Positions 1-63,859 of a DNA stretch of 64,000 nt are shown here, piece after piece; position 1 is the stretch's first letter; each line of letters starts with the position of its first letter. Source of the stretch: Loxodes magnus (Eukaryota; Ciliophora; Karyorelictea; Loxodida; Loxodidae); NCBI GenBank assembly GCA_946699065.1, contig CAMPDV010000502.1, positions 62,001 to 126,000 of the forward strand, in the 5' to 3' direction. The notes under the pieces are model-generated. The model made no database searches and had not been told where the DNA came from. It worked only from the letters and a program-made list of their open reading frames with translations. Made by a program: the position numbers and the translations under genes.

Positions 1-1653
1 TAGTTATTTAATCAAATTTGTGATTATTAATGTTAAGTTTAAAACTGCTTTTTCGATTATTTTGACTGTTAAAATAGTTCTATTTGTTTAATCCCTAATT
101 TAGATTACTGCTCTCAATAATGTTAAAGTGATTGAATTAATGATGAAATATGTGATTATGATTGTTATAACTTAAACTGCTCTTATGATGGATAAGATTG
201 TGCTTTTTAAAATCGTTATTAAGATAATTGTACTTGCAATTAATTACTTAGATATAATAAAAATTGTGATTCTTAATGCCTAACCAAGGAATGTCATTAT
301 GATTGACCAGATTGTAGTTACTAAAAGTGTAGTTAAAATTGTTATTGATCATGAGTTTACGATGGTTAATGTGATATCTCTTGTAATGTTAGTTCTTGTG
401 ATTATGATGGAGGAGATTGTATAAATGGTGTGAAAGGAATTAAAGTTAATGATGATATATGCGAGTAGAAAGGATGCCCTAAATATTGAAAAGGAGATAA
501 AATGTGCGATTAGAAATGTAATATACCTGAATGTAATAATGATAATGGAGATTGTTCTAACTGTACTTGCTCTAAAAATATAATAGGAAACAATGAATGT
601 GACAAAGAATGCTTTACAATAGATTGTAAATTCGATGCAGGAGATTGTGATCATTAGTTAACTTACTGAAATCTTTGTGCATAAAAAGGCTGCATTAACT
701 AAAACATCTAAAACTTAGTATGTAACCAAGAGTGTAATTTAATAGAATGCAATTATGATAATTTTGAGTGCATAGATAGTGATATCAAGATTAAGTAGCA
801 AAAGTGTCTAGAAACAGGCTGTTAAAGCATATCATTTTTATATAATGGAATATGTGACTAGAAATGTAATAATGAGCAGTGTAGTTATGATGGAAATGAT
901 TGTAAGTATGTCCAAACAAAATACAGAAAACAATGTAAATTTTGAAACTTATAAAGATGTGCTTATAATAACTCTTTATGAGATAGATTGAATTTTACCT
1001 CAGGAATTCTCATGGCTATTATATTAGTTGTTATAATGATATATTTTATTATATTATTGATGTTAAAAAAAATAAAGAGGAAATAGTTTATTTAAAAAAT
1101 AGAATAAGCAAACTTAGAAAGTTATTCTTAAGGTAAGATTTTTAAATTTAGTGAAGAATAAAATTAAGAAAAAAGTCCTATATTCTTATGAAATAGATAG
1201 CAATCCTAAATACTTGCAAATAAAGCTTTCAATTTAAAAGGAAATTTTTTATTTAAAATAAAATAGTTAAAATGCTTCGTAACCTCAATTGCAAGAAATT
1301 TGAAAGTAAATTCTAACTAGGTATTAAGTGAGTTGAATGTATAGCAAAAGGAAGAAATTTTGAATACTTCGAAAGATGAAACAAAAGAATTTGATAAATA
1401 GAAATAACTAAATCTTTATCTTAAAGAAACAGAAAAATAAGACTGAACACTTTAAATAGATTTAGCAAAAATATCCAAGAAAACTAATCTTTAATGAATT
1501 AAACTAATTCCATTCATGAAGATTCTTATATCTAAACTTATCAAGAAAAACTTTAAATAAGTGATCGAAAATAGATAAAGAAGTGAAAGAGGAACGAATT
1601 TGAGCTTATCTCATTCAATACATTTTTAACTTTTATTTAACATCTTAAATTGA
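1..1653 (+). CDS. LNR (Notch-type) repeat membrane protein, 3' part
   Basis: Frame 1 is open from the first base, so the 5' end lies outside the window. About 340 residues hold repeated cysteine modules of LNR type (CDxxCxxxxCxYDGxDC), ending near position 900. One hydrophobic span follows (about 1010-1065, ILMAIILVVIMIYFIILL), then a basic, Gln/Lys/Glu-rich tail of about 190 residues, presumably cytoplasmic. The juxtamembrane segment KYRKQCKFWNLQRC matches the equivalent place in the giant LNR protein at 36-46 kb (KYRKKCKFNSVQRC), so the two are paralogues. UGA is read as Trp several times (for example YWSWVYDGQC). The end is the UGA at 1651-1653, 25 bp short of a possible convergent stop; an earlier stop at 1446 or 1497 cannot be excluded. 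Whether the missing N-terminus is also a channel is unknown. Confidence 0.75.
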
Positions 1654-23263: not shown

Positions 23264-24523
23264 ATGACTCATTTAAAGTAGTTTATAGAAGGTTATTTGA
23301 TTCAAAGTTCTTAAGCTTATTGGATAATTTACCAATCAAATATTTCTTAAATATTATAGCATCTTTTTCTTCATTAGACATATCGGATTTTATGGAGAAT
23401 AAAGCATAAACTAAATTTAAGAATCTACTTTATAACTTTGACAACAGAAAAGCTATATTAATAGATTGAAAAGGAATTTAAGGGTATAAACTTAAAAGAA
23501 TTGTTAGTGATGTAAAGGAAAATTTTTGCTTATATTGATTTTATGAAAATGATAGAGTGTTAATCAATATAATTAGATTCAATCGTACACTTTTTAAAAG
23601 GTATAAACCAAACATTTGTAAGAACTGTAATTTGCTATTTAGTCATTTTTCTTTTTTCTCCTAGATCATCTAAATTTCTTTAGGCGATTTATTTTAAATT
23701 AATAAAGCTTTTTCTATACTATTGCTACTATCCAGTAAGTTAAAGCTTCTGCTAATTAGCTTCTTCCCTAACTTCGCTTATATAATATTTTTGCTTATAA
23801 TATTGTCTTTTCTGAAGCAAATACTACTATGATCATCATTAATATTAGGCCTGTAATGTTCACATTACTTTATATGTTTGCCTTATAAATATACTTAGTA
23901 ACAATTAACTAACACTAAATAGATCTATAATACTAGCAGATAGTTTACCTATCATTTTGCTTGGATTTGTATCAATAATTAGAAATAAAGAACATTGCTA
24001 CCATTCCTTTATTTAGTATAATAGCCCTCAATCTTATTTAGCTATAGTCAAGTAAGCAAGTTGTAGCTTCTTAAAAGTTAGATATGCAAGAACTTTAGAT
24101 AAATTAATGAAAGACAATCAAGTAAAACCAAATTTATCTTAAGTATAAAGCTAAAAAGAATAACAAGAATAACAAGAATAGCAAGAATAACTTTAAGAAG
24201 CTATTAAATCAATTGTGTAATCATTTTAAAACCTATCAAATACTTCAAATGTGCAAACCAGATTAAGATTATATCATCAGATAATTTCAACCAAATAGCA
24301 ATAGTTAAAGCTTAAATTTAGATTAAGATTTGGGTTACTATTTTAAAGTTAAATAGACTCTTTATTAAATACTCAAGCAAAATATAAACCATACAGAACA
24401 AATATCAAAAATAGAGAAACTTAGGAATAAAATATTACAAGTAATTCAAAGCTAAAATACAATTAATAGGATATCAAATAGCTTGAGATAATCCTTTGGG
24501 ATTAATATATCTAAATGATCTGA
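23264..24523 (+). CDS. hypothetical protein, 3' half duplicated elsewhere
   Basis: ATG (MTHLKQFIEGYLIQSSQAYW) to UGA at 24521-24523, 419 residues with one internal UGA. The N-terminal part has LTTEKLYQQIEKEFKGINLK and hydrophobic YLVIFLFSP. From 23851 the gene runs into a 1,436-bp block present again at 49164-50599. In that part lie the segment SIIRNKEHCYHSFIQYNSPQ and a perfect EQQ tandem (KEQQEQQEQQEQLQEAIKS). A second frame in the block is also open, so the reading is not certain. Function unknown. Confidence 0.5.
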
Positions 24524-25286
24524 TATTTGAATAATATAATTAAGACAGATTATAAACATATCATTCTAAATAAATTAAGATAAATCAAATTATCAATAAT
24601 TAAAGTCAAAGGAGCTCATTAATAAAATGCTGAATCCATTTCTCAGAAGAATTTAGTTTCAATGCCTAATTATACTTTATTATAAGAGACAAGCTGATAA
24701 AAGAAAATTAAAAAATCTATCTAAAAGGTAATATTTAAAAGAGATGCGAATAAACCAAATATGAATTACTTCAGAAGTGTATAGAAATTATGTTGAGAAA
24801 TAGATATACTTATAAATTTGTCTTAAATGATTAAAAATAGCAAATCTTCTTTATAATCTATATTAGGATTAAGAGCTTAAAACTATAATTACTTATATTT
24901 ATAAGTTTCTACTAAGATTATTTACTAAATAATTAATTTATCTATAAAATCTAAATTAACTAAATATAAGTTGATATCTTCTATTATTATCTTAATATTA
25001 AAGATCTTATTAACTCTAAAGTAATTTATATAAGCCATTATTAAATAAGATATCTAGCAGGTTATTTAATTATTATAAAGCATAAATATTATTAAATTTA
25101 AGTAGTTACTATCTACTTTTAATAGTTATACAATTCTTTATCCTCTTCCTTTTTTAAAATGTTGAAATACTTATAAGTATTAACTCATAAGAATTACATT
25201 TCTTTATTTAAGTTTATAAAGTGTATGTTTAATTTATTTCCATGCAAGTGTATTATAACTACACTAATGAGATTTAGCTTTATATA
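23851..25286. repeat. 1,436-bp segmental duplication, copy 1
   Basis: Matches 49164-50599 base for base over the whole length in direct orientation, with one difference noticed (C at 23973, G at 49286). Flanks are unrelated upstream. It begins inside the gene at 23264 and extends about 760 bp past its stop. No terminal inverted repeats or target-site duplication seen at the ends. Confidence 0.95.
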
Positions 25287-35954: not shown

Positions 35955-36133
35955 AATGTAAATTATTTTTTATTACCTATATGGAAATATAATATAGAAT
36001 TATTAATTGGCATTATTATTACAATAGAAGTTAAAAATTAATATAACTTTTAATAAAATTAAAGGAAAATTTAAAATTTAAAATCAATTTACTTAAAAGA
36101 GTTAATAGGTCATACAGAATCAATGTTACGCAG

Positions 36134-39100
36134 TCACTAATTTTATTATTCAATTCTCAACTATATATCATCAATTTATAATTTTCCATTTCTGCTCTGG
36201 ATATTACATTCTCTTTCCATTTCTCTTTAGCTTTAAGGATTTGTATCTATATCAGGTAATGTTTAGATAACTTTTTAATTCTCAACTAGCTATTTTAAAA
36301 GTTCTTTGGCTTAAATGTACTTAGAATTGCGTTCAACTTTATAAGAGTTTAGATCTATCTTACTCAACTATTCTTCCACTAAAATAAAGAGCTTACCTTA
36401 AGAGAAAGTACCTTATTATTAATCTAACTTATTTGCATATTATCTTCATTTAAATCCCTAATACACACATAAAATTATTCATCATATAATTACAAAACCT
36501 ATAATGATAAGCATAAAAATTCCTGACACTAGGTAAATACTATCTTTTATGGAGTTGGTTTGAGTACATCGTTAAACACTGTTAAATTTACATTTTTTTC
36601 TATACTTTATTCATTCATTCTCGCAATCATTTCCATCATAATAGCATGCTTCATTATTACATTTCTCATCACAGACTCCATTATAAAGGAAAGATATAAA
36701 AGGACATCCTGTATCTAAGCATCTCTTTTATCTGCCTTGAATTATTGAATCAACGCACTCAAAATTATCGTAATTACACTCTACTATATTGCATTCTTAA
36801 TCACATATCAAATTATCTATATTTTATTTTGTGCATCCTTTTTAAGCACAAACATTTCAATAAGTAAGAGTATTTTTACAATCTCCACCATCAAATTTAC
36901 AGTCAATTGAATAACACTCTTTATCACACTTATTATTTCCAATCATTTCTAATGGACAAGTACAGTTAGTGCAATCTCCATCATCATTATTACATTCTGG
37001 TATGTTACATTTATAATCACATATTCTATCTCCAAGTCAGTACTTAGGACATCCTTTCTACTCACATATCTCATAATTTACTTCTATTTTTTTATCACCC
37101 TAGGAACAGTCTCCTCCATCATAATGACATGAACTAACATTGCAAGCTAAATCACATTAGCCATCATAGACTCATTACCAATAGCAATTTGTACTACATT
37201 AAAAGTAATTGCAATCAGGTCAGTCATAATGGCATTCTTTATTTAAGCATTATCAATCACATTTTTTATTATTTCTTAATAATTAATTGCATGTACATTT
37301 GCTATTGTAACGATTTTAAAAAGAACAATCCTCTCCATCAAAATTGCAATCAAAACTATAGCAATCAAAATCACATATTGAATCGTTTATTCAGTTTGCC
37401 TGACATTTCTTAGAGCAAAGTTCTTAGGTAGGAAGTAACGAAGAATTGTACTAGCAATCAAAATGATCATACTTACAATTGTAAACTTAGCAATAATGGT
37501 CACAAACTCCATTCTATAGTTAACTTAAATCACAACCTGTTGAGCATTCGCAATCTCCGTAATCATAATTGCATTCTTAGACATCACACTAAGGATCACA
37601 AAAACCATCTCCTAAATAGTAAGGTTAGCAAGAAATCGAACACTCGCAATCTCCATAGTCAAAATAGCATTCTCTAGTTAAGCAAAATAAATCACATTGC
37701 TAATTTCCTAAATTTTTTGCATCGCATCCTTACGAACATTAACATTCATAATTGTCCCAATTACAACCAATTAAAGCACAATTTCAATCACATAATCCAT
37801 TATTACTCAAAGCTCTACATTCTTCAGGACAAGAGCAATCATTATAATCAAAATTGCAGTTTTTGTTATAACATTCAGGATTGCATATAGAATTATTTAA
37901 AGAAGAATTATGACATAGTTGAGTACAAAAGCAATCATAATAATCATTAAAACAATGATGATAATCACAATCTAAATCGCATTCCTAATTTCCTAAAACT
38001 GGAATACAAGAATCTGGACATTTACAATCATGATTATCAAAATTACACTGTGCATTATCACATTGAACTTGGCACATATCATCTCCAATAAAATAATCTT
38101 GACATTCGAATGAACATCTACAATCTTATAAATCATAAAAGCATTCTTTAAAATTACATTAGAAATCACAAATACCGTTTCCCAATAGAGTTACAGAACA
38201 ACTGCGATGACATAAACAATCGTGATTATCATAATTACATTATTCTACGTTACATTGAAGTTAGCAATAACCATCACCTATCAAAAAATAATAACAGTCT
38301 TCATTACAAATACATTTTCAATTGTCATAATTACAAGTAATATAATTGCATTCTTCATCACATACATTATTGTTTAATAATTATTTTGTGCAACCAGAAG
38401 GACATTAACAATCGCCGCTATCATAATTACATTGCTCTAAATTACATTATTCATGACAATATCCATCTCCTATATAGTAATCTGGACAACTTTATGAGCA
38501 CGTGCATTATCAACTATCGTAGTCGCAAAATTATTAGTTACATTCTTAATCGCAATTTTTATTATTTAACATATTCTCTGTACATTAAGAAGAACATTTG
38601 CAATCACCGTTATCATAATTACATTATTCTATATTGCATTAAGTATTGCATAATCCATTTCCTAGTAAATTGTTTGGGCAATTCTTTTCACATGCACACT
38701 ACTTTCTATCATAATCACACTCTTCATAACTGCAAATTTAATCGCATTTATTATTATTTAATAGAACTTCTGTGCATTGAGAAGGACATCCGCAATCACC
38801 GTTATCAAAAGAACATTCTTCTACATTGCATTATATTTAACAAATACCATCTCCTATATAGCTATCAGAGCATTTAAAAGCACAAGAACATAACCAATTA
38901 TCAAACTAGCAACTTGTATAGTTACATTCTTAATCACATATGGTATTTTTTAATAGATCTTAGGTACATTAAGATGGACATCCACAATCGCCATTGTCAA
39001 AATTGCACTACTTTATATTACATTATTTATGACAATATCCATCTCCTATATAATCATCTAAACAATTTTAAGAACATGTACATTATCAGTTATCCCAATT

Positions 39101-42100
39101 GCAAAACTATTAATTACATATTTAATCGCACTAGTTATTATTTAGCAGATTATCAGAACACTATGGAGGACATTTACAATCACCATTATCATAATTACAG
39201 TGCTCTATATTACATTAAGTATTACACTATCCATCTCCTATGAAGTTATTTGGACAGTTCTTTTCACAAGTACATTTTCAATTATCGTAATTACATTATT
39301 TAAAATTGCAGATATAATCGCATTAATCATTATTTAATAAATCATCTGTGCACTGAGAAGAGCATTAGCAATCTCCATTATCATAATCACATTATTCTAG
39401 ATTGCATTGTGTTTGACAGTATCCATCTCCAATATAACTTGTTTTACAATCTTATGCACAATTACAGTTTCAATTATCATAATTGCAAAATTAAAAGTTG
39501 CATGCTTAATCACATACGTTATTATTCAGGAGTTCTTATGTACATTAAGATGGACATCCGCAATCTCCATTATCAAAATTACATTATTCTACATTGCAAT
39601 AAAAGTCGCAGAAATCATCGCCGATAAGAATAGACTTACAATTTTAAGCGCAATTACATTATCAATTATCATAATTGCATGTTTTATAATTACACTCTGG
39701 ATCACATTTATCATTATTTAAAAGATCTTAAGTACAAGAAGAAGGACATCCACAATCGCCACTATCTCAATTGCATTATTTGATATTACACTCCATTTAG
39801 CAAATACCATCTCCTAATTAATAGAAAGGACAATTTACTGAACATAGGCATTATCAATTATCAAACTAGCAAGTTCAATAATTACATTCTTCATCACATT
39901 CATTGTTGTTCAATAAGTCTTCTGTGCATTCCTGTGGACATCCGCAATCACCATTATCTCAATTACATTACTTGACATTACATTAAGTATCACACTCTCC
40001 ATTTCCTATGTAATTTGTTCAGCAATTTAAAGCACAATTACATTAATAATTATCATAATTACAAAATTTGAAATTACATTCTTCATCACATTCATTATTA
40101 TTCAGCAATTCTTAAGTACATTAAGTTGGACATCCGCAATCACCATTATCTCAATTGCATTATTCTATATTACAGTAAGAATCGCAATTTTCATCTCCTA
40201 GTAGATTGGCTTAACATGATTATGAGCAAGAACATTATCCATTATCATAATCACAGTTTTTAAAATTACATTCATAATCACATACTTAATTACTTTATAA
40301 ATTTTTTGTACATCTAGATGGACATTTGCAATCATTATTATCTCAATTGCATTATTCTACGTTACACTCATCATCACAATTTCCATTGCCTAGTTAATTG
40401 ACTGAACAATTGGTTCGACATGAACATTTCCAATTATCAAAATTACATTCTTTAAAATTGCAGATTTAATCGCATTTATTATTATTAAGTAAATCTAAAG
40501 TACATTAAGAAGGACATCCACAATCACCATTATCAAAATTACATTACTCATTATTACATTAAAAATCACAGTTTTCATTTCCAATTTAATTTGTCTAGCA
40601 GTTTTTGGTACATTGGCACTATTAGTTATCAAAATTACAATTTAAATAATTGCATTCTTAATCACATACCTTATTATTTAGAAGTTATTATGTACACTAC
40701 GAAGGACATCCACAATCACCATTGTCTCAATTACATTATTCTACATTACATTATGAATCACAAGTTTGATCTCCTATAAAAGTTATATTACAATTTAATC
40801 AGCAATTGCAATGACCATTATCATAAAGACATGTTTTATAATTACATTCTTAATCACACTTATTGTTATTTAAAAGATCTAAAGTGCATTCAGATGGACA
40901 TCTGCAATCACCTTTATCTCAATTGCATTTCTATACATCACAGAATGAATCACATTATCCATTTCCAAGCTATTTGAATTGGCATTTTTTAGCACAAAAG
41001 CAGTTTTAATTATCAAAAAACTAACAGCTCTCAAAGTTGCATTCTTCGTCACATTCATTATTATTCAATAATTCTTCTGTGCATTCAAATGGACATCCAC
41101 ATTCTCCATTATCATAATTACATTGTTATGTGTTACAATAAGGATCACAATTTCCATCTCCTATTTGTAAATATGGACAATTTTAATCGCAAATGCATTA
41201 GTAATTATCATAATTACAAGTTTTGTAATTACATACAAAGTCGCACTTATTATTATTTAGCAATTATTTAGTACACTAATTAGGACATTTGCAGTCACCA
41301 TTGTCAAAATTACATGATTCTTAATAGCACTGAGAGTCACAAGTTCCATCTCCTATATAGTTGTCAGGACAATTTTACGAGCAAGTGCATTATCAATTGT
41401 CAAAATAGCAGCTTTCGTAGTTACAAACCTTGTCACACTACTTATTGTTTAAAAGATCTTATGTGCATTATTCTGGACATCCACAATCTCCATTATCATA
41501 ATTGCATATTTACACATCACACTGAAAATTGCATCAGTTATTCTCAATATAATAGTCTGGGCAATTAAATGAGCAAGTGCATTCTTAATTATCGAAGTTA
41601 CATTTTTTTATATTGCAGATTTCATCACATTTATTATTATTTAATATTTCTTAAGTACAGTAAGATGGACAATCACATTAACCATTGTCATAATCACAAT
41701 CTTTGACATTACAAAAATTATCACATTCCAGATTTTATAATAAAACGTCTGAGCAATTTTAAGTGCAAGCACATTACCAATTATCAAAATAACATTCTTC
41801 AAAATTGCAGATTTAATCACATTCATTATTATTTTAAAGATCTTCTATGCATATAGTTGGGCATCCACAATCACCTTTATCAAAATAGCAATTTTCTACA
41901 TTACAATAACTATCGCATTTTCCATTCCCTAAATTACTTAAAGGACAACCTTTTGCACATTTACATTTTCAGTTATCATAATTGCAATATTAAGAATTAC
42001 ATTCTTAATCACAAATATTATTATTTCTTAGATCCTCTGTACATTAAGGTGGACATTTACAATCACCACCATCATAATTACATTATTATACTCAGCACTA

Positions 42101-45100
42101 GCCATCACAATATCCATCTCCTATATAGCTATCAGGACAATTATCGAAACAAAGACATTGTTTGCTATCATAATTGCATACTTTAGTGTTGCATTCTTAG
42201 TCACATTTATCATTAATTGATAAATCTTATATACATTTTCTAGGACATTTACAATCGCCTTCATCATAATTGCATTAGTTAACATTACATTAAGAATCGC
42301 ATTATCCATCTCCTAATTAAGCTTCAGAACAATTTTATGAACATAAACATTATTAATTATCATAATCGCAAAATACAAAATTGCATTCTTAATCACACTT
42401 GCTATTATTTAGTAGATCTTACGTACATTAAGGAGGACATTTGCAATCTTCGTTGTCATAATTACACTCTTCTACATTGCACTAAGGATCACAATGGCCA
42501 TCATCTTTTAAATTATCTTAACAACTCTTGGAGCATACACAGTTTTAGTTATCAAAATCGCATTCTTCAGAATTGCAGATTAAATCACACTTTTTATTAT
42601 TTAATAGGTCTTATGTACATTAAGAGGTACATTTGCAATCATTATTATCTCAATTGCATTATTCTATATTACACTCATCATCACAATTTCCATCGCCTAA
42701 TTAAGTTTATAAACAGTTTTTTTCGCATGGACATTTTCAGCTATCAAAATTACATTCTTTAAAATTGCAGATTTAATCGCATTTATTATTATTAAGTAAA
42801 TCTAAAGTACATTAAGAAGGACATCCACAATCACCATTATCAAAATTACATTACTCATTATTACATTAAAAATCACAGTTTTCATTTCCAATTTAATTTG
42901 TTTAGCAGTTTTTGGTACATTGGCACTATTAGTTATCAAAATTACAATTTAAATAATTGCATTCTTAATCACATACCTTATTATTTAGAAGTTATTATGT
43001 ACACTACGAAGGACATCCACAATCACCATTGTCTCAATTACATTATTCTACATTACAATAAGGATCACAATTTCCATCTCCTAATAAATTGTCTTGACAA
43101 TTTTCAGAGCAACTACATTTTCAGTTATCATAGTTGCAATTTTAAAAATAGCAATTTAATTCACATTAACTATTATTTAATAAACTTTCTATACATTCAG
43201 ATGGACATCCACATTCTCCATTATCTCAATTACATTATTCTACATTACAATATGGATTGCAGTTGCCATCTCCTATTAATAAAAAGGGACAATTTTAATC
43301 GCAAAGACATTAGTGATTATCATAATTGCATTCTTTAAAGTTGCATAAAAAATCGCACTTTTTATTGTTCAATAATTAATTAGTGCACTAAGAGGGACAT
43401 TTACAATCCTCGTTGTCATAATTGCATTACTCTACATTGCATTGGTAGTCACAATATCCATCTCCTATGTAAAGTCAGAGACAATTTTATGCGCAGGCAC
43501 ATTATCAATTATCATAGTTGCAGATTTACAAACTGCATATTTAATCGCATTATCTATTATTTAAAAGATCTTAAGTACATTATATTGGACATCCACAATC
43601 ACCATTATCATAACTACAAGATTCTACATTGCAAGTATTATCACATGCTCCATTTCCTATTTAACTATCAGGACAGTTTTTTGAGCAAGTACACTTTTAA
43701 TTATCATAATTGCATGCTTAATAATTACATTCTTAATCGCATTAATTATTTTTTAAAAGCTTTTAAGTGCACTTAAGAGGACAACCACATTCTCCATTAT
43801 CATAATTACATATCTCTATGTTGCAGATTTCATCGCATTATTTATTATCCTTTTTTTCTTCACACTCGGAATTGCAATTTTTATTACTCAGTACCTAGAA
43901 ATCTTATTTTTACAGTTTTAGAACATAATTATATCAGTAGCAGTTATCTTCCATTTTTACTAAGCATGTTTAATTTTCCTTTGTAAATATTTTATTATTG
44001 CTTAAAATTAAAATAGCTACTATAGCATGTATTATTAAGGATATCTTCCATATCTTTTATATTAAAGTCCAGACTTATCAATGCAATTTTACATGTTTAT
44101 TATCTCTAATAAATATTTATGTTTTATCGAATCAATATTTTATGAAGCATCAAACAAAAAATATCGAACCTAGAAAAGGTATTCCTGTCATAAATGTCAG
44201 ACTAGTAGCAAATATGGCACATATTTTAGATATTTGCTCCAAATATTCATACTTAAAAATCAATCATTCCTTATTCTTTAAGTACTGTATCTATTCCTTT
44301 TTTTTATTTCTCTTACATAGTTTAAAGCATTGCTTCAATAATGAAATGAAAAATTCCGTAACCAAAACGAGCAGTGTTGTAGTAATTTGCTTACCAACGT
44401 TTAAATATCAATATCTATCAAAAATTTAATTGCTAAAACAATCAATAATTAGAATTGTAAAAGCATAGTTTATGTACTAAAAGATGAACATTTTTTTCAT
44501 TAGACTTATTTAGAATGCTTCTTTGTCTTGTTTCACGTTAAACTTTTTAAAATTCTTTAAGATGAAAATTATAATTTTATTTCATATAAAAATTACAATT
44601 GATTTACATATTTGTATTCCTCAATAGCGTAAGATTTCATTTCTGAAATTTCTACAAAATTATGCTTCCTAAGAACTTCCTGTCATAACTTCATAATAAT
44701 CTTTATAGTGACACCAACAATAATACCCTTTTGAATTTTTGTCGAATTTATAGGTTTCCATTCCATAATCTTTTTCTAATTCTTAAATGCTAAGTTTGGT
44801 CTCCTTTAAAATAAACTTATTTATTTATATATAATATTATTAACATTCAGATTTTGTAGGAAAATCTTCGTTTTAAGCCAATCCAATCAAATATATCAGC
44901 GCAAATGATATGCCTAATAAAAAAACAATAAAAATTATAAATTCAATGAGAGAATATAGCTTTCCTTTCCAGTAAGATGTTCCCAATTTTTCTCATAAGA
45001 TTGAAGAAGGTTCTGCTGCTTATTCTACACAAAGAGGATATTTATTTTTTCATCGCAGCTCAGGTTTTTGAAATTTAGTAAAGAACTTTGTTCATCTATA

Positions 45101-46213
45101 ATCTTCAATACATTTAACTTAAGATTTGACGCTCTAAAAAATGATAAAAACTTTTCCAACATCCTTTTTAATTGGTTCTTAGTATTCTTTTTTTTAAATT
45201 TCATTCATTTATTTCTTAATTTTGTTTAAATCATCTTATAAACCCTTTTTACAAGTTAATCATCTGTAGCAAGCATTTATTGGATAAATACATTTACAGA
45301 TAAAACTTTTTCATTTACTTTTTTTATCCGATTTCTTGAGATCTTCAGATGCTTTTTGAATTTAAAGCTTTTTTCATTTCTTAAAGGTGTTTAGAAGATT
45401 TTTATGTTCGCTTCCTATTTCAATTTCATGAATTAATCCGTATTTTTGTTCAAAAAAATTTTTAAGCTCTTATTCATAAACACCTTTTTTAGGCAAACCA
45501 GTTATTTAAACAGCGTATTTTCCTACGAATAAATCATCTTCTTTGTATCTTTGAATTCTTTTTTCTAGTTTTATTTCGTAAATTATAAAAAAGGCTAGAA
45601 ACACTAAGCACTAGAGGAAATCTATAAGTCCTATCTACCAATTTCTCATTAATGATTTGTCAATCATTTTTTATTCGTATTCAAGTTACTATTAGTCTTT
45701 GTTTAGCGATTTTTCAACGTTTTCCACTTCTATTCCTCGTGCTTTATATCATTTATATGTGTATTTATTCGTATCCTCTGAATGGTCAATTTTGTCGGCA
45801 TATTCCTCGTCGAAAATTCAAAAGTCTATAATTCCTTTTTACGTATCTAAGTTACCAATTGTGAAAATTTCCAAGTACCCAGCTTCTTGTTCTTCATAGC
45901 CATGTCCTTAGTAAAAGATAATGAGCTTTCAGATATTCATGCAACTTAAGAAAGCAAAACAGATAAACAGTCATTAGATGAAATTGAAATATAGTTCATA
46001 TCCCAATCCTAGCCCTGCTAAGTTTTCGGGGGAAGTTTTACAAACTGATAAATTTTATTCTTCCTGATGTAATTTACCTTAAGTTGACTTCCTTTAAGAA
46101 TAAATTTGAGCCTGATTTTAATCTCCTTTTTTAGTGAGTCAGTCAATATTCTGCTCGAGTAAATAAAGTTCTTCCTTGCTCATACTACTAAGCTTCTCAT
46201 CTGAGATATCCAT
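36134..46213 (-). CDS. OSCA/TMEM63-like channel fused to a giant LNR-repeat array
   Basis: One frame of 3,360 codons from ATG at 46213 (MDISDEKLSSMSKEELYLLE) to UGA at 36134-36136; start, LNR array and C-terminus are all in the same frame by coordinate arithmetic. Residues about 1-745 resemble the OSCA/TMEM63/CSC1 (DUF221) family: TM GYELYFNFIQWLFICFAFLS, a second TM (GLIDFLQCLVFLAFFIIYEI), a cytosolic RRM-like domain (VGKYAVQITGLPKKGVYEQE), the hallmark AEPSSILWEKLGTSYWKGK, then further TMs including ICAIFATSLTFMTGIPFLGS and IIHAIVAILILS. Residues about 760-3,200 are LNR modules. A last TM (YLVSGIFMLIIIGFVII) precedes a 110-residue cytosolic tail. UGA is Trp in ILWEKL. Channel activity is inferred from family only. 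Confidence 0.75.
40435..40750 (-). repeat. 316-bp near-identical internal duplication, copy 1
   Basis: Matches 42742-43057 over 316 bp with one substitution noticed (CTAG versus TTAG near 40596/42903). Other repeat units differ much more, so this pair arose recently by gene conversion or unequal exchange. Confidence 0.92.
42742..43057 (-). repeat. 316-bp near-identical internal duplication, copy 2
   Basis: Partner of 40435-40750, 2,307 bp apart, which is 12 repeat periods of about 192 bp. Confidence 0.92.
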
Positions 46214-49163: not shown

Positions 49164-50599
49164 CTGTAATGTTCACATTACTTTATATGTTTGCCTTATA
49201 AATATACTTAGTAACAATTAACTAACACTAAATAGATCTATAATACTAGCAGATAGTTTACCTATCATTTTGCTTGGATTTGTATGAATAATTAGAAATA
49301 AAGAACATTGCTACCATTCCTTTATTTAGTATAATAGCCCTCAATCTTATTTAGCTATAGTCAAGTAAGCAAGTTGTAGCTTCTTAAAAGTTAGATATGC
49401 AAGAACTTTAGATAAATTAATGAAAGACAATCAAGTAAAACCAAATTTATCTTAAGTATAAAGCTAAAAAGAATAACAAGAATAACAAGAATAGCAAGAA
49501 TAACTTTAAGAAGCTATTAAATCAATTGTGTAATCATTTTAAAACCTATCAAATACTTCAAATGTGCAAACCAGATTAAGATTATATCATCAGATAATTT
49601 CAACCAAATAGCAATAGTTAAAGCTTAAATTTAGATTAAGATTTGGGTTACTATTTTAAAGTTAAATAGACTCTTTATTAAATACTCAAGCAAAATATAA
49701 ACCATACAGAACAAATATCAAAAATAGAGAAACTTAGGAATAAAATATTACAAGTAATTCAAAGCTAAAATACAATTAATAGGATATCAAATAGCTTGAG
49801 ATAATCCTTTGGGATTAATATATCTAAATGATCTGATATTTGAATAATATAATTAAGACAGATTATAAACATATCATTCTAAATAAATTAAGATAAATCA
49901 AATTATCAATAATTAAAGTCAAAGGAGCTCATTAATAAAATGCTGAATCCATTTCTCAGAAGAATTTAGTTTCAATGCCTAATTATACTTTATTATAAGA
50001 GACAAGCTGATAAAAGAAAATTAAAAAATCTATCTAAAAGGTAATATTTAAAAGAGATGCGAATAAACCAAATATGAATTACTTCAGAAGTGTATAGAAA
50101 TTATGTTGAGAAATAGATATACTTATAAATTTGTCTTAAATGATTAAAAATAGCAAATCTTCTTTATAATCTATATTAGGATTAAGAGCTTAAAACTATA
50201 ATTACTTATATTTATAAGTTTCTACTAAGATTATTTACTAAATAATTAATTTATCTATAAAATCTAAATTAACTAAATATAAGTTGATATCTTCTATTAT
50301 TATCTTAATATTAAAGATCTTATTAACTCTAAAGTAATTTATATAAGCCATTATTAAATAAGATATCTAGCAGGTTATTTAATTATTATAAAGCATAAAT
50401 ATTATTAAATTTAAGTAGTTACTATCTACTTTTAATAGTTATACAATTCTTTATCCTCTTCCTTTTTTAAAATGTTGAAATACTTATAAGTATTAACTCA
50501 TAAGAATTACATTTCTTTATTTAAGTTTATAAAGTGTATGTTTAATTTATTTCCATGCAAGTGTATTATAACTACACTAATGAGATTTAGCTTTATATA
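49164..50599. repeat. 1,436-bp segmental duplication, copy 2
   Basis: Direct copy of 23851-25286. It lacks the first 196 codons of the gene at 23264, so it carries only the 3' half of that coding sequence plus downstream DNA. The one difference noticed (G at 49286) turns a TCA codon of the copy-1 frame into TGA. Confidence 0.95.
49167..49836 (+). pseudogene. 5'-truncated copy of the gene at 23264
   Basis: The frame used by the 23264 gene is intact to its UGA but there is no matching N-terminal half upstream; the preceding bases belong to the neighbouring minus-strand gene. Probably a non-functional fragment, unless the alternative frame starting ATG at 49169 is the real gene in both copies. 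Confidence 0.5.
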
Positions 50600-60629: not shown

Positions 60630-61413
60630 ATGTTCAGCTGCTCATTAAAATGGATAATTGTTAAGGTGCTATAAGGATAAATTTTTTAGGGGGTTTGCTT
60701 AGGTATTTAGAAAATAGCATCTATATAGATTAGGAACGTTTCAAGATGCCGTTGTTGTTCTTTAGGAATAAGTTATGAGAGAGAACGCCTAGTAGTTTGT
60801 ATGTGGAAAGTGCTTCGGAACATTTTTCATACGTGATCTTTATTAATTTATTGCTGATCCTATGATTTCTGAGGTTCATATAAGAAAACTATAACTTAAC
60901 GAAGAATTAAAATATCTAGAGCCAAAGAAACTTTAAGCTGGAGAATTGATATTTAATGATGTGGAAAAATTACTACATAAACAGACTCTTTTCAAAGAGT
61001 TTCTTTTACGAGTCACTAATTTAGATTATTTCAAAACTTACGACATCAAAATCCGTGACAGCAGAGATATCATTCTCAACTTTTGGTTTAAAGCAGAGCT
61101 GATAGATAAGTAGAAACTATTTAACGCCTTTAAGTAATAAGTCGGAGATTTTTAGAAGACTAAAATCAGACTTTTGAAACCGCAAGTTACGTACACAACT
61201 ATCAAATAGCTATTTTAATTTAACTCATAAGACATAATTTTTACTGTTTTGCACTTCTAATACTTAGCATTATTGATTTCCAGATAAGTTTATATTTCAA
61301 TAAAATATCAACTGAAATACATTCTCTTAGTCATTAGATAAACAAATCAATGTTATCTCCTAACTTAGAAAGTCTTAGTAATTAACTAAGATGGAAATTA
61401 TTTAACTAAATGA
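60630..61413 (+). CDS. hypothetical protein with duplicated body, copy A
   Basis: Exon 1 from ATG (MFSCSLKWII) is joined through a 16-nt intron to DKFFRGFAQVFRKQHLYRLG. The body includes VCGKCFGTFFIRDLYQFIAD, EPKKLQAGELIFNDVEKLLH and NLDYFKTYDIKIRDSRDIIL, a well-formed alpha/beta-like sequence without a name. UGA stop at 61411-61413; the last 80 residues after KTKIRL are less convincing. Bases 60693-61173 recur at 63343-63823. Confidence 0.7.
60660..60675 (+). other. inferred 16-nt intron
   Basis: GTTAAGGTGCTATAAG lies between the start-codon frame and the conserved body frame; removal joins SLKWII to DKFFRGFAQV. Same size and ends as the SF-assemblin intron. Confidence 0.7.
60693..61173 (+). 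repeat. 481-bp duplication, copy A
   Basis: Identical in length to 63343-63823, one difference noticed (T at 60915, G at 63565). Covers most of the coding body of the gene at 60630. Confidence 0.95.
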
Positions 61414-63277: not shown

Positions 63278-63859
63278 ATGCAAAAATTGCCTATTGGAGG
63301 GTTAGAAAAGATAAAAGGTGTAGGTAAGATATTAAAGTATGAGTTTGCTTAGGTATTTAGAAAATAGCATCTATATAGATTAGGAACGTTTCAAGATGCC
63401 GTTGTTGTTCTTTAGGAATAAGTTATGAGAGAGAACGCCTAGTAGTTTGTATGTGGAAAGTGCTTCGGAACATTTTTCATACGTGATCTTTATTAATTTA
63501 TTGCTGATCCTATGATTTCTGAGGTTCATATAAGAAAACTATAACTTAACGAAGAATTAAAATAGCTAGAGCCAAAGAAACTTTAAGCTGGAGAATTGAT
63601 ATTTAATGATGTGGAAAAATTACTACATAAACAGACTCTTTTCAAAGAGTTTCTTTTACGAGTCACTAATTTAGATTATTTCAAAACTTACGACATCAAA
63701 ATCCGTGACAGCAGAGATATCATTCTCAACTTTTGGTTTAAAGCAGAGCTGATAGATAAGTAGAAACTATTTAACGCCTTTAAGTAATAAGTCGGAGATT
63801 TTTAGAAGACTAAAATCAGACTTCAATTTAACACAACTGATTAAACATTATCTAAATGA
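63278..63859 (+). CDS. paralogue of the 60630 gene, copy B
   Basis: A distinct N-terminus (MQKLPIGGLEKIKGVGKILK) runs in frame, without an intron, into the duplicated body FAQVFRKQHLYRLGTFQDAV. The copy leaves the duplicated block after KTKIRL and ends 12 codons later at UGA 63857-63859. Shorter C-terminus than copy A. Because the body is essentially identical, it looks like a recent duplicate that acquired a new start. Confidence 0.65.
63343..63823 (+). repeat. 481-bp duplication, copy B
   Basis: Direct copy of 60693-61173, 2,650 bp apart; sharp ends, no flanking repeats seen. Confidence 0.95.

Follow-up and report, generated by a model that had tools for sequence, protein, structure and literature searches.

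We examined a 64,000-nucleotide (nt) stretch of the Loxodes magnus genome (contig CAMPDV010000502.1, positions 62,001 to 126,000, hereafter the window, whose own numbering is used throughout), in which a coding region on the minus strand joins a channel-like part on the OSCA/TMEM63 plan to a long array of LNR (Lin-12/Notch repeat) modules. Read with TAA and TAG as Gln and TGA as Trp, positions 46213 to 36134 encode a protein of about 3,360 residues. By hydropathy, eight hydrophobic stretches lie upstream of the array and one downstream (Table 1), and the array follows transmembrane helix (TM) 9 with TM10 after it, as a first-pass annotation made from the letters alone had proposed when it set the array behind the penultimate hydrophobic helix.

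Available passages of the genome paper assign the macronuclear genome to NCBI table 27, where UGA is Trp or stop, and give introns a mean of 19.3 bp (PMC11441545). The frame contains 209 TAA, 41 TAG and 58 TGA codons. In columns with at least 80% Trp among the aligned channel rows, Trp is encoded by TGA 64 times and by TGG 34 times, and this abundance of TGA at conserved Trp columns supports its reading as Trp. As table-27 translation reserves no stop codon, an open frame is uninformative; we discarded it as proof of a single gene, and the evidence used below is domain content and conservation. The ATG at 46213 is aligned with the starts of paralogues L011, L014, L016 and L017. The position of the stop is uncertain, at 36136-36134 or at the next in-frame TGA, 36112-36110. 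Two in-frame TAA codons lie 3 and 4 codons upstream of the first candidate (window 36110-36146), in conflict with the depletion of UAA reported ahead of L. magnus stops (PMC11441545, in part), so that the TGA at 36112 may be the true one. Scans of the window with Rfam at the gathering threshold and with ARAGORN (bacterial code) found nothing.

Table 1. Features of the LNR-OSCA coding region (window positions; residues are those of the predicted protein)
Feature	Position	Strand	Basis or remark
Whole coding region, LNR-OSCA protein	36134..46213	minus	3,360 codons including TGA; ATG at 46213
TM1, residues 70-103	45905..46006	minus	hydropathy; no TM0 ahead of TM1
TM2, residues 191-220	45554..45643	minus	hydropathy
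RRM-like cytosolic domain, PF14703 PHM7_cyt, residues 233-408, AEPSSILWEKL at end	44990..45517	minus	Pfam
TM3, residues 414-449	44867..44974	minus	hydropathy
TM4, residues 531-557	44543..44623	minus	hydropathy
TM5, residues 574-594	44432..44494	minus	hydropathy
TM6, residues 606-633	44315..44398	minus	hydropathy
TM7-TM8 hairpin (reading of one 37-residue hydrophobic stretch, 660-696)	44126..44236	minus	hydropathy
TM9, residues 714-745	43979..44074	minus	hydropathy and alignment with paralogues
LNR array, 72 canonical six-Cys modules (residues 780-3197) and 2 irregular	36623..43876	minus	Pfam and six-Cys pattern
TM10, residues 3219-3256	36446..36559	minus	hydropathy and tail profile
Inferred 18-nt intron GTAAGCTCTTTATTTTAG	36379..36396	minus	phase 1, in-frame length, in tail; inferred from paralogues
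Cytosolic tail motif SYKVERNSKY	36317..36346	minus	conserved; commonest family form [ST]Y-x-I/V-E-x-N-P-K-Y

The array and the channel part

The Pfam Notch/LNR profile (PF00066) recognised 72 stretches, with 1061.6 bits for the whole protein against a cut-off of 21.2, and an independent six-Cys pattern also gave 72 modules, 65 of them with the spacing 3-9-3-4-6. Two irregular modules, seen by eye in linkers of 42 and 40 residues, raise the total to about 74, close to the 75 or so first estimated; the single 10-kb open reading frame stressed with that estimate proves nothing by itself. A stricter pattern found 71 modules in the gene and 5 elsewhere in the window, in a second paralogue. In order-2 Markov resamples of the gene it found none (20 of 20). 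A 192-nt period, equal to two modules, runs over about 38.1-43.8 kb with 29 copies in register. The array also holds a 316-nt internal duplication (40435-40750 and 42742-43057, 99.7% identical), and the doubled protein stretch was seen by eye in the paralogue on C928.

The modules match the negative regulatory region (NRR) of Notch3 in the PDB at 2e-11. Residues of Ca2+ type, at positions that we take to be the ligand positions of Notch LNR-A (C3-3 D/N, C6-4 D, C6-1 D/E), are complete in 43 of the 72 modules, and the C6-4 Asp is found in all 72. The residue before the sixth Cys alternates along modules 1-60, being Asp or Glu in 29/30 odd and 2/30 even modules, and is acidic in all of the last 12; the alternation is present in C502a (76 modules), not in C418 (41 modules). 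Notch LNR modules are described as binding Ca2+ and as unfolding upon its chelation (PMC3145759, in part). The array probably lies on the extracellular side, where its modules would form disulfides and bind Ca2+; guessing 1.5-2.5 nm per module, it might be 110-180 nm long when folded. Scanned with Pfam up to E=1, the window protein gave Notch/LNR and PHM7_cyt only, so that from the Notch receptor set of EGF, LNR and ANK it has LNR alone.

PHM7_cyt was matched at E=5.8e-5 with 23.8 bits, or 26.7 bits for a scan of the channel by itself, slightly short of the curated cut-off (27). The RRM-like domain is thus present as first described, not at the N-terminus but between hydrophobic segments 2 and 3. 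Among the profiles that the first-pass annotation had named for a check, PF14703 therefore matched under its cut-off, the LNR profile gave its 72 stretches and PF02714 (RSN1_7TM) was unmatched; given this last result, membership of OSCA/TMEM63 rests on paralogues and profiles. PF14703 exceeds its cut-off in L014 (45.1 bits), L036 (33.6), L007 (35.3) and L048 (28.3), and PHM7_cyt was found at E<=0.01 in 15/17 members of alignment A1 and 15/21 of A4. At the same threshold PF02714 was found in 5/17 and 8/21 members, and it is above cut-off in L007 and L008, which have no LNRs.

Two profiles were compared with the PDB. The first, A2, contains 15 LNR-bearing channel domains only, and matched CSC1-like protein 2 (which we take to be TMEM63B) at 2.3e-8, TMEM63A at 2e-4 and calcium permeable stress-gated cation channel 1 (8k0b) at 5.5e-4; lower-ranked matches were an RRM protein (0.0088) and anoctamin-6 (0.009). 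This is the similarity that had been proposed for residues 1-745. The second, A5, has 25 rows including LNR-less kin and gave 29 matches, among them CSC1-like protein 2 (7e-14), ERD4 (2.3e-6) and OSCA1 (3.1e-4). As its matches also take in RRM proteins and the designed protein 6m6z (6.5e-7), the RRM-like part alone is no proof of OSCA/TMEM63. The region of the hydrophobic stretch 660-696 aligns weakly with residues 610-678 of CSC1-like protein 2 (profile, second domain, 8.6 bits). Comparison by hhalign with three canonical OSCAs of L. magnus gave 92% probability, E=6.2e-7 and 17% identity over 319 columns.

In a maximum-likelihood tree of 30 channel domains, the canonical OSCAs split off at 100/100, and one change accounts for the LNR trait, with a support of only 61/76 (58% of bootstrap trees). 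A hydrophobic TM0 segment is seen at residues 4-41 of the canonical copies L003-L005, and hydropathy did not find one in the window protein, L007, L048 or L049; in OSCA1.2, TM0 is reported to touch lipid and to face TM6 and TM9 (PMC12346119, in part). On this distribution of TM0, the window channel and its kin are placed by sequence as a divergent, TM0-less sister clade on the OSCA/TMEM63 plan, not as canonical members. Protein-database searches gave no match with the channel alone (7,836 candidates, E<=0.01), with residues 1-800 (2,237 candidates, E<=0.01) or with profile A1 (7,999 scored, E<=0.001); we give these negatives little weight, on the assumption that such databases probably seldom translate this code, and they do not establish absence from other ciliates.

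A gene family with graded arrays, and one gene spanning channel and array

A genome search with residues 1-785, in which 57 of 474 candidates were scored, gave 59 rows corresponding to at least 57 distinct loci on 22 contigs. All rows except two N-terminal pieces of split matches (57/59) extend to query residue 765 or further. In this closest group, LNR modules come after the channel and in frame with it at 30/30 loci read (29 besides the window copy, L009), and 24 of the 30 show 13-15 modules within the roughly 500 residues read downstream. At L012, L015, L023, L032, L033 and L034 there are 2 or 7 modules before the array stops or changes frame; these may be pseudogenes, products of misassembly, arrays that are simply short, or genes with introns that went unrecognised.

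The LNR-less L007 (C108) and L008 (C39) share 26% identity with the window channel and pass straight from TM9 to TM10. A search with L007 returned 84 rows (53 candidates scored of 617). The locus counts of both searches are lower bounds and take in near-identical contigs, maybe haplotypes or assembly copies; C1289 and C1908, for example, are matched at identical coordinates. Among 11 loci read besides L007, the TM9-TM10 loop is short in C10, C46, C117, C28, C6, C168, C94, C178 and C9; C89 and C47 carry six LNR modules each at the loop, four canonical and two irregular by eye, and Pfam finds six stretches in C89. Of the 53 scored, 35, C89 and C47 included, end at L007 residues 705-709, which is the insertion point. 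In-frame LNRs are found there in C198, C481, C31 and C1203 (4/4 read), so that 35 paralogues have been read past this point (29 + 2 + 4) with LNRs in 35/35. A further locus, C61, found with PF02714, has by eye a short LNR array behind the same helix in a shifted frame. Array sizes range from 6 (Pfam) to 41 (C418), 72 (window) and 76 (C502a) by pattern. The first-pass annotation had recognised neither this family nor the tail intron.

Part of the second LNR-OSCA paralogue, its C-terminal end, lies at window 1-1500 on the plus strand, with the 5 strict modules (109-903), a TM10-like helix and the motif SYEIDSNPKY in a shifted frame. The channel part of this paralogue, expected to the left of the window, did not appear among the genome matches that were scored. 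Genome-wide, PF00066 gave 10,515 first-look candidate places, and 147 matches from the 150 scored; strong LNR copies also lie on C143, C155, C1023 and C1305. The gene is flanked by a 1,436-nt direct repeat (23851-25286 and 49164-50599, 99.93% identical), each copy with a short TAACAAGAA tandem array, which is perhaps a recent interspersed element. Another direct repeat, of 481 nt, is found at 60693-61173 and 63343-63823 (99.8% identical).

A rival reading is that the region consists of two adjacent genes, one for a channel and one for a protein with LNRs, merged by translating a UGA near 44.0 kb as sense or by an assembly join. The first-pass annotation had kept such a fusion as its alternative, and in-frame TGA codons do occur at 44152, 44134, 44080 and 43936, UGA doubles as a stop in table 27 (PMC11441545, in part), and there is one in-frame ATG (Met 754) past TM9 and ahead of the array. 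No hydrophobic signal stretch follows Met 754, however, and W694 is Trp in 23/24 other rows (17 TGA, 6 TGG), W688 and W712 being less conserved. The in-frame succession of channel and LNRs at all 30 loci read is also against two genes.

Further evidence comes from the far end of the protein. A profile of TM10 and tail from nine LNR-less genes was run against 422 sequences, namely family sequences and six-frame translations of loci and window with the training loci excluded. It matched residues 3232-3302 of the window protein at E=3e-7 once the 18-nt intron was spliced out and at 7.9e-5 unspliced. All 16 matches below 1e-3 are family tails, one being the paralogue at window 1-1500, and the best other domain reached 0.063. 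A phase-1 intron of 18-19 nt occupies the matching place in the window gene, C928, C502a and C418 and in the LNR-less L047 and L050. A 19-nt candidate lies at this place in C61, where the tail motif was not recovered; L045 and L046 have a frame shift there and no intron by pattern, and the tail reads through without an intron in L007, L008, L048, L049 and L051-L055. Finally, L048 and L049 carry channel and LNRs in a single frame: in L048, the short paralogue on C89, one open frame of 1,155 residues holds PF14703 at 28.3 bits (cut-off 27) and LNR at 105.8 bits (cut-off 21.2). Because the window C-terminus matches the TM10 and tail of LNR-less sisters, the tail intron is common to LNR-bearing and LNR-less genes, and the C89 paralogue joins both parts above their Pfam cut-offs, channel, array and TM10/tail are read as one gene. 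These findings contradict the fusion, which we consider very improbable.

Constraint and possible function of the loop

Judged from sequence, then, a single gene, channel homology, a defined insertion point, graded array sizes and a conserved tail characterise this family. Beyond this, we propose that the window protein is a ten-TM OSCA/TMEM63 homologue without TM0, in which force on the LNR-expanded TM9-TM10 loop opens or tunes the pore; we give this reading a probability of about 0.5. We infer the mechanism from the anatomy of the protein and from published OSCA structures. Both ends of the array would be anchored in one channel, where TM9 and TM10 reach the outer face. The loop, acting as a spring or tether, might then be pulled by contact, by flow or by a bound partner and move TM10 (and TM9); this movement would open the pore or make it more or less sensitive to membrane tension, and the stiffness of the loop could be set by Ca2+ on the modules. 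A free-ended tether was rejected, the array being anchored at both ends.

Structural reports, available in part, bear on how such a pull could be transmitted. TM9-10 of OSCA border a lipid-filled cleft between subunits (PMC6235563), and in solved OSCA channels widening of the inter-subunit lipid-filled cavity accompanies activation. In OSCA1.1, M10 borders the central cavity, which has different areas in the contracted and the extended state, and pressure sensitivity falls with H651A, a change of a residue that lies at a putative lipid on the cavity's extracellular side (PMC10319725). With its ends on TM9 and TM10, the array could let external force act on the cavity-lining region. Animal TMEM63A/B have been seen as monomers (PMC10319725), so the dimer-cavity part of the mechanism may not apply.

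Constraint was estimated from near pairs. The window gene and its C928 copy are 99.3% identical at the nucleotide level over 3,300 codons, with nonsynonymous to synonymous ratios of 0.25, 0.08 and 0.15 across the three thirds of the array, which is under purifying selection in this one near pair. For residues 1-700 the ratio is 0.71 (4 changes) and for residues 3200-3315 it is 1.07 (12 changes); between the window and C159 channels it is 0.85 on 30 changes. Among 13 LNR-bearing rows, the channel ratio (dN/dS) is 0.17-0.57 in 20/21 pairs with dS under 1.

Several of these observations weigh against a force-gated loop. The Pfam channel score of the window protein stays under cut-off, PF02714 is unmatched and TM0 is missing; the near pairs suggest weak channel constraint; anchoring at two ends makes the array no plain tether; and many near-copies, clustered on few contigs, also fit a role in recognition or in a coat.

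In the former role, the array would be the variable ectodomain of a surface receptor for recognition or adhesion (prey, mate or self) and the channel would signal upon binding, force being no stimulus. The at least 57 loci of the channel type with at least 35 further loci ending at the insertion point, the presence of several loci each on C502, C76, C805, C1602 and C198, the abundance of first-look LNR places (150 scored) and array sizes from 6 to 76 all agree with it. Purifying selection on the array (0.08-0.25, in the only near pair with a full comparison) and the rigid spacing of 65/72 modules are in contrast unlike fast diversification, and we hold the receptor to be a real possibility that falls short of probable.

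In the coat role, a channel part that no longer conducts would anchor a Cys-rich surface coat in the membrane, or act in it as a lipid scramblase. The superfamily is described as including scramblases (TMEM16), 2/21 members of A4 have an anoctamin match and channel constraint is weak in the near pairs (0.85 and 0.71). An anchor would nevertheless require neither the cytosolic RRM-like domain nor the tail motif, both kept with the channel, and the low channel dN/dS among the 13 LNR-bearing rows also speaks against it, making this explanation unlikely.

A bolder proposal, which we advance tentatively and doubt more than we believe, is that the family forms a novel class of channels coupled directly to force: a pore subunit with its own two-ended, Ca2+-tunable extracellular spring of at least 76 LNRs at the most seen, derived from one TM9-TM10 insertion in a TM0-less OSCA/TMEM63 channel, later amplified to about ninety loci and used by this karyorelict ciliate in sensing touch, flow or gravity, possibly including its statolith-bearing Mueller organelle. 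In the open-licence literature surveyed, available in part, we found neither a large folded domain in the TM9-TM10 loop of any OSCA/TMEM63 homologue nor LNRs in a channel, and a word search of the accessible L. magnus genome paper found no Notch, LNR, OSCA or channel (PMC11441545). With 0, 6, 41, 72 and 76 modules on one scaffold, the family amounts to a natural dose series, which makes it directly testable whether a tether, in addition to lipid tension, can gate OSCA-type channels. Unusual channels that may sense force or contact are thereby opened to experiment. The family also supplies candidates for the mechanosensor of Loxodes gravitaxis: gravity sensing uses a barium sulfate statolith (PMC5460273), and the literature passages available name no molecule. 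A link between statolith and channel is speculation.

Comparison with known systems

The likeness to OSCA/TMEM63 (CSC1) proteins lies in the RRM-like domain of the second intracellular loop (IL2), between TM2 and TM3, in the order of TM3-TM9 with the TM7-TM8 hairpin, in TM10 and the cytosolic tail, and in profile matches to TMEM63A/B and, with LNR-less kin, to OSCA1 and ERD4. The canonical plan, in contrast, has eleven TMs with TM0 and an extracellular N-terminus, whereas the window gene has no TM0, and its TM9-TM10 loop has about 2,450 residues where that of OSCA/TMEM63 is short. TMC channels and TMEM16 anoctamins are superfamily relatives with ten TMs and a cytosolic N-terminus. Resemblance to TMEM16 consists of weak anoctamin-6 matches (1e-4; 0.009 with A2) and the Pfam Anoctamin matches in A4, and resemblance to TMC of PF07810 in L008 alone (E 0.016, 16.1 bits against a cut-off of 25). 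Membership of either was rejected, the TMC match being under cut-off and the RRM-like PF14703 of the window family being an OSCA/TMEM63 trait.

The six-Cys module is that of the Notch NRR, but there are 72-74 modules in the window gene versus 3, they are sited in a channel loop and not in a type I receptor, and alternate ones mostly have no acidic residue before C6. Tethered mechanotransduction channels are exemplified by the ankyrin spring of NOMPC and the tip link of TMC1-PCDH15. If the mechanism proposed here is right, the window gene would share with them long repeats acting on a channel, and would differ in that its repeats belong to the channel chain itself, are probably extracellular and are anchored at both ends.

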